NCBI GenBank assembly: GCA_947491945.1
Contig: CANLLN010000002.1
Span: forward strand, 248,001-312,000
Origin: an uncultured Carboxylicivirga sp.
GTDB taxonomy: Bacteria; Bacteroidota; Bacteroidia; Bacteroidales; Marinilabiliaceae
Direction: 5' to 3'
Length of the DNA stretch: 64,000 nt
The notes beneath the pieces are model-generated. The model was not told where the DNA came from. It ran no database searches and was given only the letters and a program-made list of their open reading frames with translations. Positions within the stretch are counted from its first letter, which is position 1. Each line of letters begins with the position of its first letter. Of the stretch, positions 21,416 to 27,832 are shown in pieces. Both the position numbers and the translations under genes were made by a program.

Positions 21416-21994
21416 ATGCTGTTAATCATCGACAACCAAAGTGCGTTTATCAAAAAATTTAAGCGCCAGTTTCTTGCCGAGCAGGACTTTGACTATATCT
21501 TTTTTGATCATAACCAACCCATCACTTTATCGGCCAAAACAAAAATTAAGGGCATTATTTTATCAGGTGGTAAGGGTAACCCCTACGAACCACTCAACCT
21601 TACAAGTAATTATGTGGCCTTAATGAATTTTGATGTGCCCATTTTAGGCTTTTGCCTGGGACACGAAATACTCGCCGTAAGCTACTGTGGGCGAATAAAA
21701 AAGCTGCCGGAATACCATGGCAAAAAGGAACTGATCAGTATCAGTAAGCCTGAGGATCCCATATTTCAGGGATTGAATAAAACGGAAGTATCATTAGTTA
21801 AACGTCATGCTTTCCATGTATCGGAGATACCTGCGTCCTTTGAGAGCCTGGCCCAGTCCGACACATGCAGGAACGAAATCATCAGGCACAAATCAAAACC
21901 TATCTATGGCTTTCAATCGCACCCTGAAGTTTCAGGCGAAGACGGACTGCTTATGGTGAAGAATTTTCTAAAAATATGTAAGATCGAAGTATGA
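21416..21994 (+). CDS. Class I glutamine amidotransferase (GuaA N-domain-like)
   Basis: I place the start at the ATG at 21416; the frame opens earlier at a TTG, but the domain begins at MLLIIDNQSAF. The 192-residue protein is a stand-alone class I amidotransferase domain. The nucleophile is Cys80 in LGFCLGHEILAVSYCG, and His169 and Glu171 are in GFQSHPEVSGEDG, so the triad is complete. It resembles the glutaminase part of GMP synthetase (archaeal GuaA subunit A type), but no synthetase domain is nearby. The next gene on the strand, 99 bases on, is an ATP-grasp ligase with an M20-like domain, so ammonia or a deamidated or gamma-glutamyl group might be passed between them. That partnership is inference. 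Confidence 0.82.
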   Translation: MLLIIDNQSAFIKKFKRQFLAEQDFDYIFFDHNQPITLSAKTKIKGIILSGGKGNPYEPLNLTSNYVALMNFDVPILGFCLGHEILAVSYCGRIKKLPEYHGKKELISISKPEDPIFQGLNKTEVSLVKRHAFHVSEIPASFESLAQSDTCRNEIIRHKSKPIYGFQSHPEVSGEDGLLMVKNFLKICKIEV

Positions 21995-22093
21995 AACATA
22001 CCCTGCAAATTTGATTATCCATATTGAATCGCAAGCGGAAGATCAGATCTACCAGGGAGTTCCATCAAATCGTTGAAAAATAAAATTAAACAA

Positions 22094-24241
22094 ATGAAAA
22101 TAGCATTAATATACAACAAAGATATTAGCGGGGTGATCAACACCTTTGGCATGCAGAATAAGGAGTTTTATAATGAAAAGACTGTCAAAAAAGTAGCCGA
22201 CAGCCTGGAACAGGCCGGACACAACGTGGCAGTGCTGGATGGCAACAAGCAAATTATTGAACGACTGGAAAATTTTATGCCCCGTGTGAATGAAGGCGAG
22301 CAAATGGGAATGGTGTTTAATATGGCTTACGGTATACAGGGCGAATCGCGCTACACTCACATCCCCAGCATGCTTGAGATGCTGGGTCTGCCTTACGTGG
22401 GCTCATCACCTTCGGGTCATGCCCTGGCACTCGATAAGGTGCTAACCAAAGTAATTTGGAAAAATAACAACCTGCCCACACCGGACTTTTGGGTTTTTAA
22501 CAGTCACAGCGAAGATTTATCGTCGGTAAAATACCCTGTGATCGTAAAGCCCAAGATGGAAAGCGTTTCTTTCGGACTAAAGGTAGTGTACAATGAAGAG
22601 GATCTGAAAGAAGCCATTCACTTCATCGTTACAGAATTTGAGCAGCAAGCGCTGGTGGAACAATTTATACGCGGCCGTGAATTTTGTGTAGGCCTCATTG
22701 GTAACTCACCGGTGGAGGCATTCCCGGTGCTGGAAATTGACCTGGAGGGCGATCCGGATGCCATACAAACGGTAGATGATAAAAAGCATCAGCCCAAGCG
22801 TAAGGTATGCCCTGCTCACCTACCCGAGGAGCTGGCTGAAAAAATGCAGAAATTGAGCATCGATGCCTTTAAAGCACTCAACCTACGCGACTTTGCCCGG
22901 GTAGATATCCGCTTGGACGTAGAAGGTAATATTTACTTACTGGAAATCAATTCTATGGCCAGCCTTGGCGAGTCGGGCTCCTACCCCACAGCGGCACGCG
23001 TGGCTGGTTATAACTTCGAAAGCCTGGTAAATAAGATGCTGGATGTGGCCTCGGTACGCTATTTTACCAACTCATTAATACCCAACCACTCAAAGGCGAA
23101 TACCAAAGCCAACCAAACGGCGCGCCTACGTACATTTATTAAAACAAGGCAACAACGTACCGAGCGCCTGCTTCAAAAGCTGGTTGACACAGATACTCAC
23201 GTACGCAATGTGGAAGGTGTTAACTATTGCAGTGGGCTGATAAGTTCTGAGCTGAGCCAACTGGGCTTCACACAGGAAATATACCCCCAATTGGAAGTGG
23301 GTAACATCCTGTATTTCTCCAACGCCTTTGGGCAGGCCGTAGATTATCTGATTGTGCAGCCGATGGACAACCGTATTAAGCTGGCCCAGCACGAGAATTA
23401 CCATGAGCAGGAGCAATACCTCGAGGGTACCGGCGTGTGGGAAAATAAAGGCGGCATCGCCATTCTTATCAGTGCTTTGCAAGCCCTTAAATTCTCACGC
23501 CACTTAAAAAAACTGAACATCGGCATCCTGCTGGTCACCGATAATGCCATCGACGGACGTTACTCCAAGGCTATCATACAGCAGAAAGCAGCTCATGCAC
23601 AGTCCGTCATTTCCCTTAGCGGCTCTTCTAAAAACGGTGGTCTTATCCTGTCGCGCTCCGGATCGGCCATGTATCGTCTGGAGATGAAGATGCTGAAAAA
23701 AAACGACCCGGAAAATGTATCCCTAACTGCCATGAACTTTAATAAAACACTGGCGGCTATTGCGGATATATCGCAGAATGATAAAAATAACATAATTGCA
23801 CCCTACGATATTCAGTTTAAGAGCAATATTTTTAAGAAATACGCTTATGGAACGGCCGGCATCAGTGTTCGTTATAACACCCCGGAAATACTTGATGAAA
23901 TTGAAAAGAAACTAACGCGAATTGTATCGCTTCAGAAACGCAGTAAAATCTATCAGGTAAAGTTAGAAGGCGGTGTAAAACGCCCGGCTCTGGCAACATC
24001 CGATAAAACCAAACAATTGTACAACGACATCAGTCATCTGGCCAAACAAATTGATGTGCGCATCAGCAAGGAGCACCGTTGGAGCTCGGCCGATATTTGT
24101 CACATTAATAAGGAAATGCCCATTATTGACGGTCTGGGCCCCGTGGGTGAATACCTGCCGTCTGACAACGAACGCATCATACGGCACAGCCTTATTGAGA
24201 GGGCATTGTTAGTGGCCCTATTGCTTAAGGATAAAAAGTAA
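22094..24241 (+). CDS. D-Ala-D-Ala-ligase-like ATP-grasp protein fused to a catalytically degenerate M20 peptidase-like domain
   Basis: With the ATG at 22094 as start (a TTG lies 21 bases earlier) the protein has 715 residues. Residues 1-330 are a Ddl-like ATP-grasp ligase: VIVKPKMESVSFGLKVV, LVEQFIRGREFCVG, ARVDIRLDVEGNIYLLEINS. The tail of the last motif, MASLGESGSY, differs from the MPG..S of true Ddl. After a basic linker, residues 365-712 follow an M20 metallopeptidase fold, but each metal-site motif is altered. PMDN (423-426) replaces the usual H-x-D, GVWENKGG has Glu450 for Asp, TDNA (482-485) replaces DEE, and GPVGEYL (682-688) lacks the final His. The second half is thus probably a binding domain rather than a peptidase. 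The product may be an amino-acid or peptide ligase; the substrate is unknown. Confidence 0.8.
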   Translation: MKIALIYNKDISGVINTFGMQNKEFYNEKTVKKVADSLEQAGHNVAVLDGNKQIIERLENFMPRVNEGEQMGMVFNMAYGIQGESRYTHIPSMLEMLGLPYVGSSPSGHALALDKVLTKVIWKNNNLPTPDFWVFNSHSEDLSSVKYPVIVKPKMESVSFGLKVVYNEEDLKEAIHFIVTEFEQQALVEQFIRGREFCVGLIGNSPVEAFPVLEIDLEGDPDAIQTVDDKKHQPKRKVCPAHLPEELAEKMQKLSIDAFKALNLRDFARVDIRLDVEGNIYLLEINSMASLGESGSYPTAARVAGYNFESLVNKMLDVASVRYFTNSLIPNHSKANTKANQTARLRTFIKTRQQRTERLLQKLVDTDTHVRNVEGVNYCSGLISSELSQLGFTQEIYPQLEVGNILYFSNAFGQAVDYLIVQPMDNRIKLAQHENYHEQEQYLEGTGVWENKGGIAILISALQALKFSRHLKKLNIGILLVTDNAIDGRYSKAIIQQKAAHAQSVISLSGSSKNGGLILSRSGSAMYRLEMKMLKKNDPENVSLTAMNFNKTLAAIADISQNDKNNIIAPYDIQFKSNIFKKYAYGTAGISVRYNTPEILDEIEKKLTRIVSLQKRSKIYQVKLEGGVKRPALATSDKTKQLYNDISHLAKQIDVRISKEHRWSSADICHINKEMPIIDGLGPVGEYLPSDNERIIRHSLIERALLVALLLKDKK

Positions 24242-24305: not shown

Positions 24306-25178
24306 CTATAAATCCTCATAGTTGGCAATTACAAGTTTGCGCATGGCCTCCCCTTCCTCCAGGCGATAGGTAATCTGACGCGTGCCACCAGTGGGCAGTG
24401 CATTAGCATCATCCGGCAGATAAACAGGAAAACGTCGCTTCAACACATTCTCTTCCACAACAAACTCATCGTGCCCCATGTAACCTTCGGCTGCAGGATG
24501 ATCGACGATGGGCGCCACATAAACCTGACTCATAGATCGAAGATTATTCACCGAAAAAGCCAATAGCTCACCATAGCTACCACTGCCATCTGATTGTGTG
24601 ATGATCAATAATTCGGGTGAGTTATCACTATTCAGATCCGCCAGCAAGGCATCGATCACCCGATAACCCATGATATCAAACGATTCGTTATAATCCCTTG
24701 CCGCTAAGCCTTGCGTACGTACCACCAGCCGATGATGATAGTCCGCTTTTGTAGCCTCAAGATGAAATTCGATGTCCTCCTTGTGAAGTGACTGTTTAAA
24801 ACTGACTGCACCACCTTTCTGCTCAACACGTTGACCTTTTAGAATGATATCCTCATCCTTCAAAAACATAAAACTGTCACCCTTAATCCAAAATGAATAG
24901 CCATCATCAGCGACATAGCGTTCGCCACTAGCTGTTTTAACGCGCTTCATGAGGTAAACCTCGCCATTGGTTTCCTCTTTTATAAGCACTTCATCGCTTC
25001 CTTTCCTAGTGAATTGAAATCGTCGACTCCCATCCCAAGTGGCATAATGCTGCTCTGAAGCATTACTATCGGTATTGTCCGTTGCAGCAGGCGCTTGCTG
25101 CTGCTTTTTACGATTTCCATTATAACCACAGGCACTCATCAAAACACTCATGGCCAACACAACTATTTTTATCATCAT
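24306..25178 (-). CDS. Lipoprotein with MliC-like and PliI-like lysozyme-inhibitor domains
   Basis: The 290-residue protein begins with a lipoprotein signal peptide ending LMSAC (Cys17). After a polar Gln/Asn/Asp-rich linker, residues about 45-115 resemble MliC, the C-type lysozyme inhibitor domain. It has an eight-strand pattern with FTRKGSDEVLIKEETNGEVY, DDGYSFWIKGD and ILKGQ. Residues about 120-290 resemble PliI, the inhibitor of invertebrate-type lysozyme, best seen in ADLNSDNSPELLIITQSDGS then GSYGELLAFS. Combining the two in one outer-membrane lipoprotein would protect peptidoglycan from animal lysozymes. Domain calls rest on motif resemblance, with MliC the less certain. Confidence 0.68.
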   Translation of the reverse strand: MMIKIVVLAMSVLMSACGYNGNRKKQQQAPAATDNTDSNASEQHYATWDGSRRFQFTRKGSDEVLIKEETNGEVYLMKRVKTASGERYVADDGYSFWIKGDSFMFLKDEDIILKGQRVEQKGGAVSFKQSLHKEDIEFHLEATKADYHHRLVVRTQGLAARDYNESFDIMGYRVIDALLADLNSDNSPELLIITQSDGSGSYGELLAFSVNNLRSMSQVYVAPIVDHPAAEGYMGHDEFVVEENVLKRRFPVYLPDDANALPTGGTRQITYRLEEGEAMRKLVIANYEDL

Positions 25179-26861: not shown

Positions 26862-26893
26862 CCAGACCCGGATCGTAATTCGGGTCTGGCTTA
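26862..26893. terminator. Terminator between convergent T9SS and mscS genes
   Basis: CCAGACCCG (26862-26870) pairs with CGGGTCTGG (26881-26889) around a 10-base loop. It ends 2 bases before the mscS stop codon, which itself falls in the following CTTATT. Confidence 0.75.
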
Positions 26894-27832
26894 TTCCCCT
26901 TGGGGAGAATGAATTGTATTCTTTTCCGGCTTAAAACTTATGCGCGTTTGCGGCAGACTAAGCGGATATTTATCGCGAATAAAGGCAATGAGCTGTTCAC
27001 GCACATACACTCTCAGATCCCAGGCGGTGGGCGAATTTTTGGCACTTACCAGCACCCTTATTTCCATGTAGTTCTCCTTTGAGTCGGTAACCTGAACCAC
27101 CTTTACCTTGCCATCCCACAGTTCACAATTCTCCAAGATCCGATCCAGCTCGTGGCGCAAAGCATCCACCGGCAGGCTATAGTCGGCATACAGAAAAACT
27201 GAGCCTATAATATCAGCATTACTGCGGGTCCAGTTCTGAAACGGCTTTTCTAAAAAATAGGTAGAAGGAAGAACTAAACGACGCTTATCCCATAAACGAA
27301 TAACAATGTAGGTAAGATTTATTTCCTCAATCCATCCCCACTCATTTTCAACCACTACGGCATCATCAATGCGAAAAGGCTGGGTGATGGCAATTTGAAT
27401 ACCTGCCAAGATCGCACCCACAATTTTCTGTGCCGACAAACCCACAATAATACCCACCACACCGGCCGAGGCAAAAATACCGATCCCAATTTCCCGAATG
27501 CTGTCAATAGACATCATAATCGCCGCCATAGCAGTGATGATAATGATAAAAACAATGACCTTCTCCAATAAGTTAATCTGCGTGTGCAGCTTACGCGACT
27601 TCAGATTATCTTCGCGCGTGATATCGAATTTGCGCAATAGCATCTTTTTCAACAGACCGATGCTTTCGATAAGCAACCAGGCCACACAGGCAATCATCAA
27701 CATCTTATTGAGGGGCACCCTTTCGGTAACTCCCCACATAAAATCTGACGCATCGAACTGAAAAAATGCCTGATAAGAAGCAAGAAATATCAATAATAAA
27801 ACACTAAAGCTTAGGCGGAAAATTTTACTCAT
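26891..27832 (-). CDS. Small-conductance mechanosensitive channel (MscS family)
   Basis: The 313-residue protein would release solutes on hypo-osmotic shock. Hydrophobic helices lie at about 5-25, 40-60 and 90-110. The pore-lining helix and gate follow (about 115-145, IGIGIFASAGVVGIIVGLSA then QKIVGAILAGIQIA). The beta domain shows FRIDDAVVVENEWGWIEEI and VLPSTYFLEKPFQNWTRSNA. The size and layout are typical of short MscS homologues. It is divergent from mnmH, sharing a 135-base intergenic region that holds promoter elements for both. Confidence 0.9.
   Translation of the reverse strand: MSKIFRLSFSVLLLIFLASYQAFFQFDASDFMWGVTERVPLNKMLMIACVAWLLIESIGLLKKMLLRKFDITREDNLKSRKLHTQINLLEKVIVFIIIITAMAAIMMSIDSIREIGIGIFASAGVVGIIVGLSAQKIVGAILAGIQIAITQPFRIDDAVVVENEWGWIEEINLTYIVIRLWDKRRLVLPSTYFLEKPFQNWTRSNADIIGSVFLYADYSLPVDALRHELDRILENCELWDGKVKVVQVTDSKENYMEIRVLVSAKNSPTAWDLRVYVREQLIAFIRDKYPLSLPQTRISFKPEKNTIHSPQGE

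Follow-up and report, generated by a model that had tools for sequence, protein, structure and literature searches.

A ligase-peptidase fusion beside an amidotransferase gene

The window analysed here is a stretch of 64,000 nucleotides (G000:C2:248001-312000) from the 4.9 Mb genome of an uncultured Carboxylicivirga sp.; throughout, G labels refer to genomes and L labels to loci, and G000 is the window's own genome. Two neighbouring genes on its forward strand are the subject of this work (Table 1). The first encodes a stand-alone class I glutamine amidotransferase (GATase), and the second, 99 nt downstream, encodes a fusion in which an ATP-grasp ligase half resembling D-alanine-D-alanine ligase (Ddl) is joined to an M20 peptidase half that lacks a metal site. 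An earlier note on this DNA, made from its letters alone, had pointed out both open reading frames, the catalytic triad of the GATase and the completeness of the Ddl-like half; we verified the coordinates together with Cys80, His169 and Glu171, and found the ATP/Mg residues of the ligase half in place.

The two halves of the fusion were placed by sequence searches against Pfam, NCBIfam and the PDB. Pfam Dala_Dala_lig_C matched residues 121-316 (8.9e-38), and Peptidase_M20 matched residues 438-711 (2.6e-5) at its 24.6-bit cut-off. NCBIfam gave 63 matches for the fusion, and each of the 25 listed scored under its cut-off; no Pfam match, nor any NCBIfam match listed, describes the fusion or gives a pathway for it, and no description of the fusion or its pathway was found in open-licence full texts. 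The window GATase matched both Pfam GATase (1.4e-27) and Peptidase_C26, and its top NCBIfam models, GMP synthase subunit A and guaA_Nterm, each fell under cut-off.

Table 1 Features of the fusion locus, in positions of the window
Feature	Position	Strand	Remarks
Stand-alone class I GATase	21416..21994	+	192 aa; Cys80, His169, Glu171 confirmed
Fusion of Ddl-like ATP-grasp ligase and metal-free M20 domain	22094..24241	+	715 aa
Ddl-like ATP-grasp half, residues 1-325	22094..23068	+	ATP/Mg residues kept; Gly295 at the Ddl Ser position
M20 / carboxypeptidase-G2-like half, residues 342-715	23117..24238	+	all metal-ligand positions replaced; fold complete
P423-M424-D425 at the H-x-D position	23360..23368	+	
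E450 at the bridging Asp position	23441..23443	+	
D483-N-A-I at the D-E-E position	23540..23551	+	catalytic Glu and ligand Glu lost
S509 at the Glu ligand position	23618..23620	+	
P689 at the last His ligand position	24158..24160	+	
MscS-type mechanosensitive channel	26891..27832	-	about 2.6 kb downstream of the fusion

The M20 half has lost its metal site and kept its fold

A contig scan with the M20 half, in which loci were gathered by two short peptide patterns (EHRWSS and a GTG stretch), gave 48 loci from several bacterial phyla and from archaea. Neighbour counts and the residue alignment exclude L092 (the window) and L093 (on the same contig as L068). The alignment has 45 rows, two of them shorter than 700 aa; L070, L080, L087, L089 and L091, which are short or cut by contig ends, are not among them, and L072 also has a short separate N-terminal frame.

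An M20 profile built from the fusion family found carboxypeptidase G2 (CPG2) at 1.3e-16. The same enzyme was the best PDB match of the predicted fusion structure, covering the whole CPG2 chain including the lid domain (E 2.7e-28, target-normalised TM score 0.81), so that the comparison with M20 peptidase structures proposed in the earlier note gave a complete CPG2 fold. The AlphaFold model has a mean pLDDT of 85.4, with blocks of ten residues in the M20 half mostly at 90 or above; its pTM is only 0.58, and the relative placement of the two halves is therefore not reliable.

Site positions were read against CPG2 and against an intact M20 protein encoded in L074. In the window, the five metal-ligand positions hold P423, E450, A485, S509 and P689, and N484 stands at the position of the catalytic Glu; we take S509 and P689 to correspond to E200 and H385 in CPG2 numbering. 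The earlier claim that every metal ligand is gone holds for these five positions and needs one small correction, as D425 (the Asp of H-x-D) and D483 (the Asp before the two Glu) are retained, in the window and in all 45 aligned members, at positions that presumably are not metal ligands.

Across the 45 aligned members, the His position of H-x-D is occupied by Pro in 19, His in 11, Ser in 8 and Asn in 7, and the bridging Asp position by Glu in 33, Asp in 6 and other residues in 6. The last His ligand persists in 10. No member has Glu at the ligand position after the catalytic one or an acid at the E200-equivalent position. Two ligands are thus gone from every aligned member, and the remaining ones eroded lineage by lineage: 31 members retain none, six retain one, three retain two and five retain three. 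The eight with two or three ligands are the archaeal L072, L079, L081-L083 and L086, the Coatesbacteria locus L084 and the bacterial metagenome-assembled genome (MAG) L085. An intact metal site was found in none of the 45 aligned members, and no more than three of five ligands in any, so that homologues with an intact site, named in the earlier note as a finding that would speak against it, are missing from the aligned family. The fusion thus resembles CPG2 and other M20 glutamate carboxypeptidases in its whole fold, lid domain included, but differs from them in having no full metal site, in keeping the catalytic Glu in only 3 of 45 members (L068 and both L074 copies), and in lacking the lid His in all 45. 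The lost site is not an accident of one sequence, as the 45 aligned members share these features, and the M20 half seems, from its residues, to be a pseudopeptidase unable to cut.

The invariant residues of the M20 half include several in the expected pocket region, namely R521-S522-G523, H661-R662-W663-S664-S665 and D679-G680-G682. Because EHRWSS and the GTG stretch served as search patterns, their conservation partly reflects the selection of loci; the metal-site positions lie outside both patterns. The ratio of nonsynonymous to synonymous substitution rates (dN/dS; Nei-Gojobori, own script) of the M20 half was 0.061, 0.116, 0.169 and 0.037 in the four unsaturated pairs; a fifth pair, near saturation, gave 0.019, and six of the 11 pairs were saturated. 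As the fold is complete and dN/dS is 0.04-0.17 in the unsaturated pairs, these results support purifying selection on the M20 half, with the fold kept without catalysis, as the earlier note had proposed.

One might instead suppose that the fusion is decaying and that its M20 half is a leftover that now does no more than aid solubility. Such a history would fit the higher dN of the M20 half relative to the ligase half in 10 of 11 pairs, and the fusion of L089, which looks broken. The low dN/dS in the four unsaturated pairs largely refutes it, however, and the fold and motifs are retained across phyla. Moreover, none of 60 related genomes has a ligase half at more than 33% identity without the M20 half, although the wider scan, which used the M20 half as query, would miss such genes. 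We consider decay very unlikely.

A second alternative is that the dead half acts on proteins rather than on a small molecule, for example in assembly, dimerisation or the activation of a separate, active M20 enzyme. At L074 a stand-alone M20 gene, intact at every site, stands beside two fusion copies, one of them with changed ligase residues; at L054 an M20 peptidase gene with an M20_dimer domain (L054:11434-12507) lies three genes, or about 2.3 kb, downstream of the fusion; and the M20 half retains a full lid domain. Against this, a gene like the M20 gene of L074 was detected, among 48 loci, at L074 alone, by a probe that missed the gene of L054 and may have missed others, and the invariant residues lie in the expected pocket region, with the reservation that EHRWSS was itself a search pattern. 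We regard a role of this kind as unlikely.

The ligase half keeps its ATP/Mg residues and differs from Ddl

The residues that we take, from E. coli DdlB and VanA, to be the ATP/Mg catalytic residues of the ligase half (K115, K152, E189, E196, R269, D271, E284 and N286) are retained in 44-45 of 45 members, and the exceptions are all in one fusion copy of L074. That locus has an operon-like arrangement (L074:317-9137) in which a gamma-glutamyltransferase (GGT), a glutamate-2,3-aminomutase-like protein, the intact M20 protein, the fusion copy with the changed ligase and the fusion copy with the intact ligase follow one another. The best matches among solved structures were Ddl and VanA chains (E 2e-35 to 1e-31). 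The fusion shares with Ddl (PF07478) the ATP-grasp fold and the ATP/Mg residues, but its N-terminal stretch differs and is without GGxSxE, presumably the N-terminal motif of Ddl; the omega-loop Tyr is not kept, as judged by eye; and it carries the C-terminal M20 half. The position of DdlB S281, a Ser that we assume binds the second D-Ala, is occupied by Gly in 43 of 45 members, so the second substrate should differ from that of Ddl. The fusion enzyme probably joins amino acids.

The Ddl fold and profile could also be taken to indicate an alternative D-Ala-D-Ala (or D-Ala-X) ligase that makes cell-wall precursors. We rejected this identity and consider it highly improbable: of the 63 NCBIfam matches 25 were listed, and all Ddl models in that list scored under their cut-offs, the best two at 182.4 bits (cut-off 243) and 171 bits (cut-off 245.65); the Ser is replaced by Gly; another Ddl-like gene is present in the host (G000:C11); and the family is present in archaea.

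The family is widespread, rare and patchy

Among the 60 relatives, full-length fusions were found in 10, comprising eight of 14 same-genus genomes, G022 (two copies) and G034, and a fragment at a contig edge of G052 has an M20 half with the same features. When 395 genomes sampled evenly across the phylum were searched with the M20 profile, only the window's own genome and G404 gave matches at E <= 1e-30. Bacterial hosts of the wider set of loci are Bacteroidales, Melioribacteraceae, Desulfobulbaceae, Desulfopila, Aminicenantes, KSB1, Calditrichaeota, Coatesbacteria, Syntrophomonas, Phycisphaerales and Neomarinimicrobiota; the archaeal hosts are, by record name, Methanosarcinales, Methanophagales and Methanomicrobia, with ANME (anaerobic methanotrophic archaea) in two of the names. 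A search for the same fusion elsewhere in the Bacteroidota, another check that the earlier note suggested, therefore turned it up both in relatives and in further MAGs of that phylum. To judge from the two ligand losses common to the 45 aligned members across phyla, the family is old and conserved, and its widespread but rare and patchy occurrence would fit a transferred accessory function.

Partner genes differ between loci

Searched genome-wide, the 11 of 60 relatives that have the fusion or its fragment, and no others, have a GATase match at E <= 1e-20; it lies about 8-10 kb from the fusion in G011 and G034 and is a partial match in G022. Of the 395 phylum genomes, the same two that have the fusion also have the GATase, plus one with a 34% match. 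A GATase stands directly or one gene upstream of the fusion in 21 of 48 loci, one of them (L064) truncated, and the Cys motif and HPE are retained in all 20 full-length copies. Several of the 48 loci are cut by contig ends, and since the probes for neighbouring genes were drawn from these same loci, the neighbour counts are exploratory and may miss distant homologues, as happened with the M20 gene of L054.

Elsewhere a different enzyme takes this place. GGT adjoins the fusion or lies near it in 11 of 48 loci, in archaea and some bacteria, and no locus has both GATase and GGT; by eye, the locus GGT has no obvious signal peptide. With the GGT of L086 as query against 28 genomes, some match was found in 20 and one of at least 42% identity in 12, namely the genomes behind the 11 GGT loci plus the genome of L081, a locus whose contig stops just past the fusion; none of these 12 had a GATase match. 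One of the two Coatesbacteria, L078, has neither enzyme, and a homologue of N-formylglutamate amidohydrolase occurs in seven of 48 loci. On a tree of the 45 rows the GATase label changes six times and the GGT label five, so that gain, loss or missed detection of these partners must have occurred repeatedly. Both GATase and GGT work on gamma-glutamyl amides, and they may therefore hold exchangeable roles on a gamma-glutamyl compound.

Small proteins of about 102-112 aa, alike by eye, are encoded near the GATase or the fusion at five loci (L094:6486-6821, L095:10730-11059, L058:5817-6134, L059:5089-5412 and L075:3557-3862); four of the five were scanned and had no Pfam match. A label of 'universal-stress-like', given by eye to some neighbouring genes, was dropped, as the one scanned had no Pfam match.

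Osmotic and polyamine genes near the fusion

The earlier note was partly right as a whole and overlooked the osmotic genes around the fusion. A gene for an MscS channel lies between GATase and fusion in L048, L051, L054 and L059, directly or one gene upstream of the fusion in L064-L067, and directly downstream in L070. A genome-wide Pfam search of 11 genomes found 63 genes of PF00924, of which 10 lie within 1.5 kb of the fusion against 0.062 expected by chance, and 12 within 3 kb against 0.098 expected, the latter in six of 11 genomes including the window's own. As the 11 genomes are related, these occurrences are not 10 independent events, and the expectation was computed for MscS alone among the osmotic genes; for MscS, the osmotic gene context of the fusion is in excess of chance.

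Other genes of these islands include CorA, AA_permease, a sigma factor, a Na/H exchanger and a GNAT plus nitrilase protein in G011; CorA (by blastp) and a RimK plus Zn-protease protein in G034; and CorA (by blastp), TrkA-C, an AA_permease with a weak SLC12 match and a histidine kinase of a two-component system in G404. At L075 a sodium:alanine symporter is directly upstream of the fusion. Proteins of about 990 aa with no Pfam match (L040:12512-15487 on the minus strand and L039:2797-5784 on the plus strand) adjoin the MscS genes in the islands of G011 and G034.

The MscS gene of the window is possibly part of the same context, which is weak in this genome; the two nearest relatives lack the gene at their loci (L033 and L034). 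Elsewhere in the window, a lipoprotein-like reading frame (24306-25178, minus strand) weakly resembles lysozyme inhibitors (MliC 3.4e-7; PliI 6.9e-6, under cut-off).

A gene of the KamA type (lysine/glutamate-2,3-aminomutase) occurs in three of 48 loci, upstream of the fusion in the archaeal MAGs L072 and L086, and also in L074. Both types scanned were above the KamA-family cut-off; for the L074 aminomutase the best model was glutamate 2,3-aminomutase (2.3e-103, under its cut-off). In three families of the order, a KamA-family match is followed by two tandem Ddl-like matches (G052:C118:18134-21203, G047:C314:2520-5610 and G057:C58:21393-24413), a set that may be another beta-amino-acid ligase operon.

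The neighbourhoods also admit a different product. The ligase could couple glutamate to putrescine or spermidine, giving a gamma-glutamyl-polyamine or another polyamine conjugate, with the GATase as a PuuD-like gamma-glutamyl hydrolase. Genes resembling speA, speB and deoxyhypusine synthase are found upstream at L058-L060 and L077 and, in G011, upstream of the GATase, and a deoxyhypusine-synthase-like gene adjoins the fusion in L056; the first two names were given by eye and the third by NCBIfam models under cut-off. At L061 the gene directly downstream is an ABC-transporter ATPase with a TOBE_2 domain, which together with the two following genes looks to us like PotABC, and the Peptidase_C26 match of the GATase points the same way. 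The archaeal, Coatesbacteria and Syntrophomonas loci had no polyamine-probe match within 6 kb of the fusion, however, and no polyamine-type gene is among the named neighbours in the window; MscS, CorA and the cation transporters would be left unexplained, and the gene order may be shared by descent. We judge a polyamine conjugate to be quite unlikely.

Relation to known solute systems

The nearest parallel in logic is the system for N-acetylglutaminylglutamine amide (NAGGN), a trio of an amidotransferase of the asparagine-synthase type, a GNAT/ATP-grasp protein and an M42 peptidase. Like that trio, the fusion system combines an amidotransferase, an ATP-grasp ligase and a peptidase-type protein; unlike it, the amidotransferase is of class I and the peptidase is both fused and dead. 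The fusion system is thus akin to systems of an ATP-grasp ligase with a peptidase partner, built from other parts. NAGGN itself, an amidated dipeptide, and beta-amino acids are described as osmolytes in a published review (PMC1224877). The NAGGN system was set aside for the host's kin, as TIGR03103 was over cut-off in none of 60 relatives; weaker matches (E <= 1e-20) occurred in 14 of 60 and none in G000. Ectoine was likewise set aside, with ectoine synthase in one of 60 relatives, barely over cut-off, and no match in G000.

A study of Methanoperedens reports that kamA, ablB and the MscS-like ynaI share one operon and that ynaI is upregulated when salinity is higher (PMC11337218). Fusion loci share with this N-epsilon-acetyl-beta-lysine operon a KamA-type gene in three of 48 cases and MscS in 13 of 48, but no locus has both, so the published pairing is matched only piecewise, and the enzyme here is an ATP-grasp ligase. 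A further likeness, of a ligase and a peptidase fold in one chain, is to proteins about 715 aa long from two genomes belonging to the same family (L017:334-2472, minus strand; L018:1423-3573, plus strand), in which a Ddl-like ligase is fused to a peptidase of a different family, S58 (DmpA-type). At L015:620-2518 (minus strand) a methyltransferase domain is fused to a Ddl-like ligase.

A possible role in making a compatible solute

One explanation of these observations, which we favour tentatively and at somewhat less than an even chance, is that the fusion is an ATP-grasp amide ligase that makes a glutamate-derived peptide or amide as a compatible solute, its dead M20 half binding substrate or product. 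The chemistry, the solute role and the binding role are all inferred. The ligase half would use ATP to activate a glutamate-type carboxylate as an acyl-phosphate and couple this to an amine. The product would be small, neutral or zwitterionic and derived from glutamate, a peptide or amide that may include a beta-amino acid, and it could serve as a compatible solute. The CPG2-like half may hold the substrate or product or sense its level, since it descends from a peptidase family that recognises a C-terminal glutamate. The GATase, or elsewhere GGT or the N-formylglutamate-amidohydrolase homologue, would supply ammonia or hydrolyse a gamma-glutamyl product, and MscS would let the solute out at down-shock.

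This interpretation must be weighed against a number of observations. MscS lies within 6 kb of the fusion in only the 13 loci mentioned, and its occurrences within 1.5 kb are confined to five of 11 genomes; in the window it is on the opposite strand with two other genes between, and is the sole close osmotic gene. In several Bacteroidales, polyamine genes are as close to the fusion as MscS is. None of the three KamA-type loci has an MscS match, and a link to KamA within the order found little support, as all 11 fusion genomes have KamA, yet so do 32 of the 49 other relatives. Six of 14 same-genus genomes lack the system, so the fusion is dispensable, and the L089 fusion is in two pieces (87 and 174 aa) and may be broken. 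As to the GATase, one of the two fusion copies of G022, a MAG with 7% contamination, adjoins a truncated copy of 83 aa (L064:4274-4522). In a search of 23 fusion-bearing genomes, reached through loci that for the most part have no GATase, it was missing from 20, among them the Bacteroidota MAGs of L056, L063 and L075; many of the genomes searched are incomplete MAGs. The three positives were the genome of L050, on another contig, and those of L062 and L071, known from their loci. We therefore rejected the GATase as an obligate partner, and an obligate role in supplying ammonia is unlikely. The pairing of the two genes proposed in the earlier note accordingly stands for the relatives, where the linkage is conserved, and does not extend to the family in general; its suggestion that the two could make and bind a peptide or amidated product would be in keeping with these results.

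A broader version of our favoured reading is that the fusion belongs to a new solute pathway of marine and sediment bacteria and methane-cycle archaea, in which the dead CPG2-type domain is a built-in receptor for a glutamate-containing (beta-)peptide product and tunes synthesis to the level of solute, GATase and GGT are exchangeable partners that handle gamma-glutamyl groups, and a dedicated MscS is the exit. We hold this to be somewhat unlikely in all its parts. For many marine anaerobes the set of solutes is not fully known, and if a solute role is true, a ligase-pseudopeptidase in osmotic islands, apparently transferable between hosts, would be a gene handle for finding a new one. The fusion also shows clearly how a peptidase can become part of a ligase as a domain that no longer cuts, and with eight members retaining two or three of five ligands and 31 of 45 retaining none, the evolution of this pseudoenzyme should be both traceable and testable.

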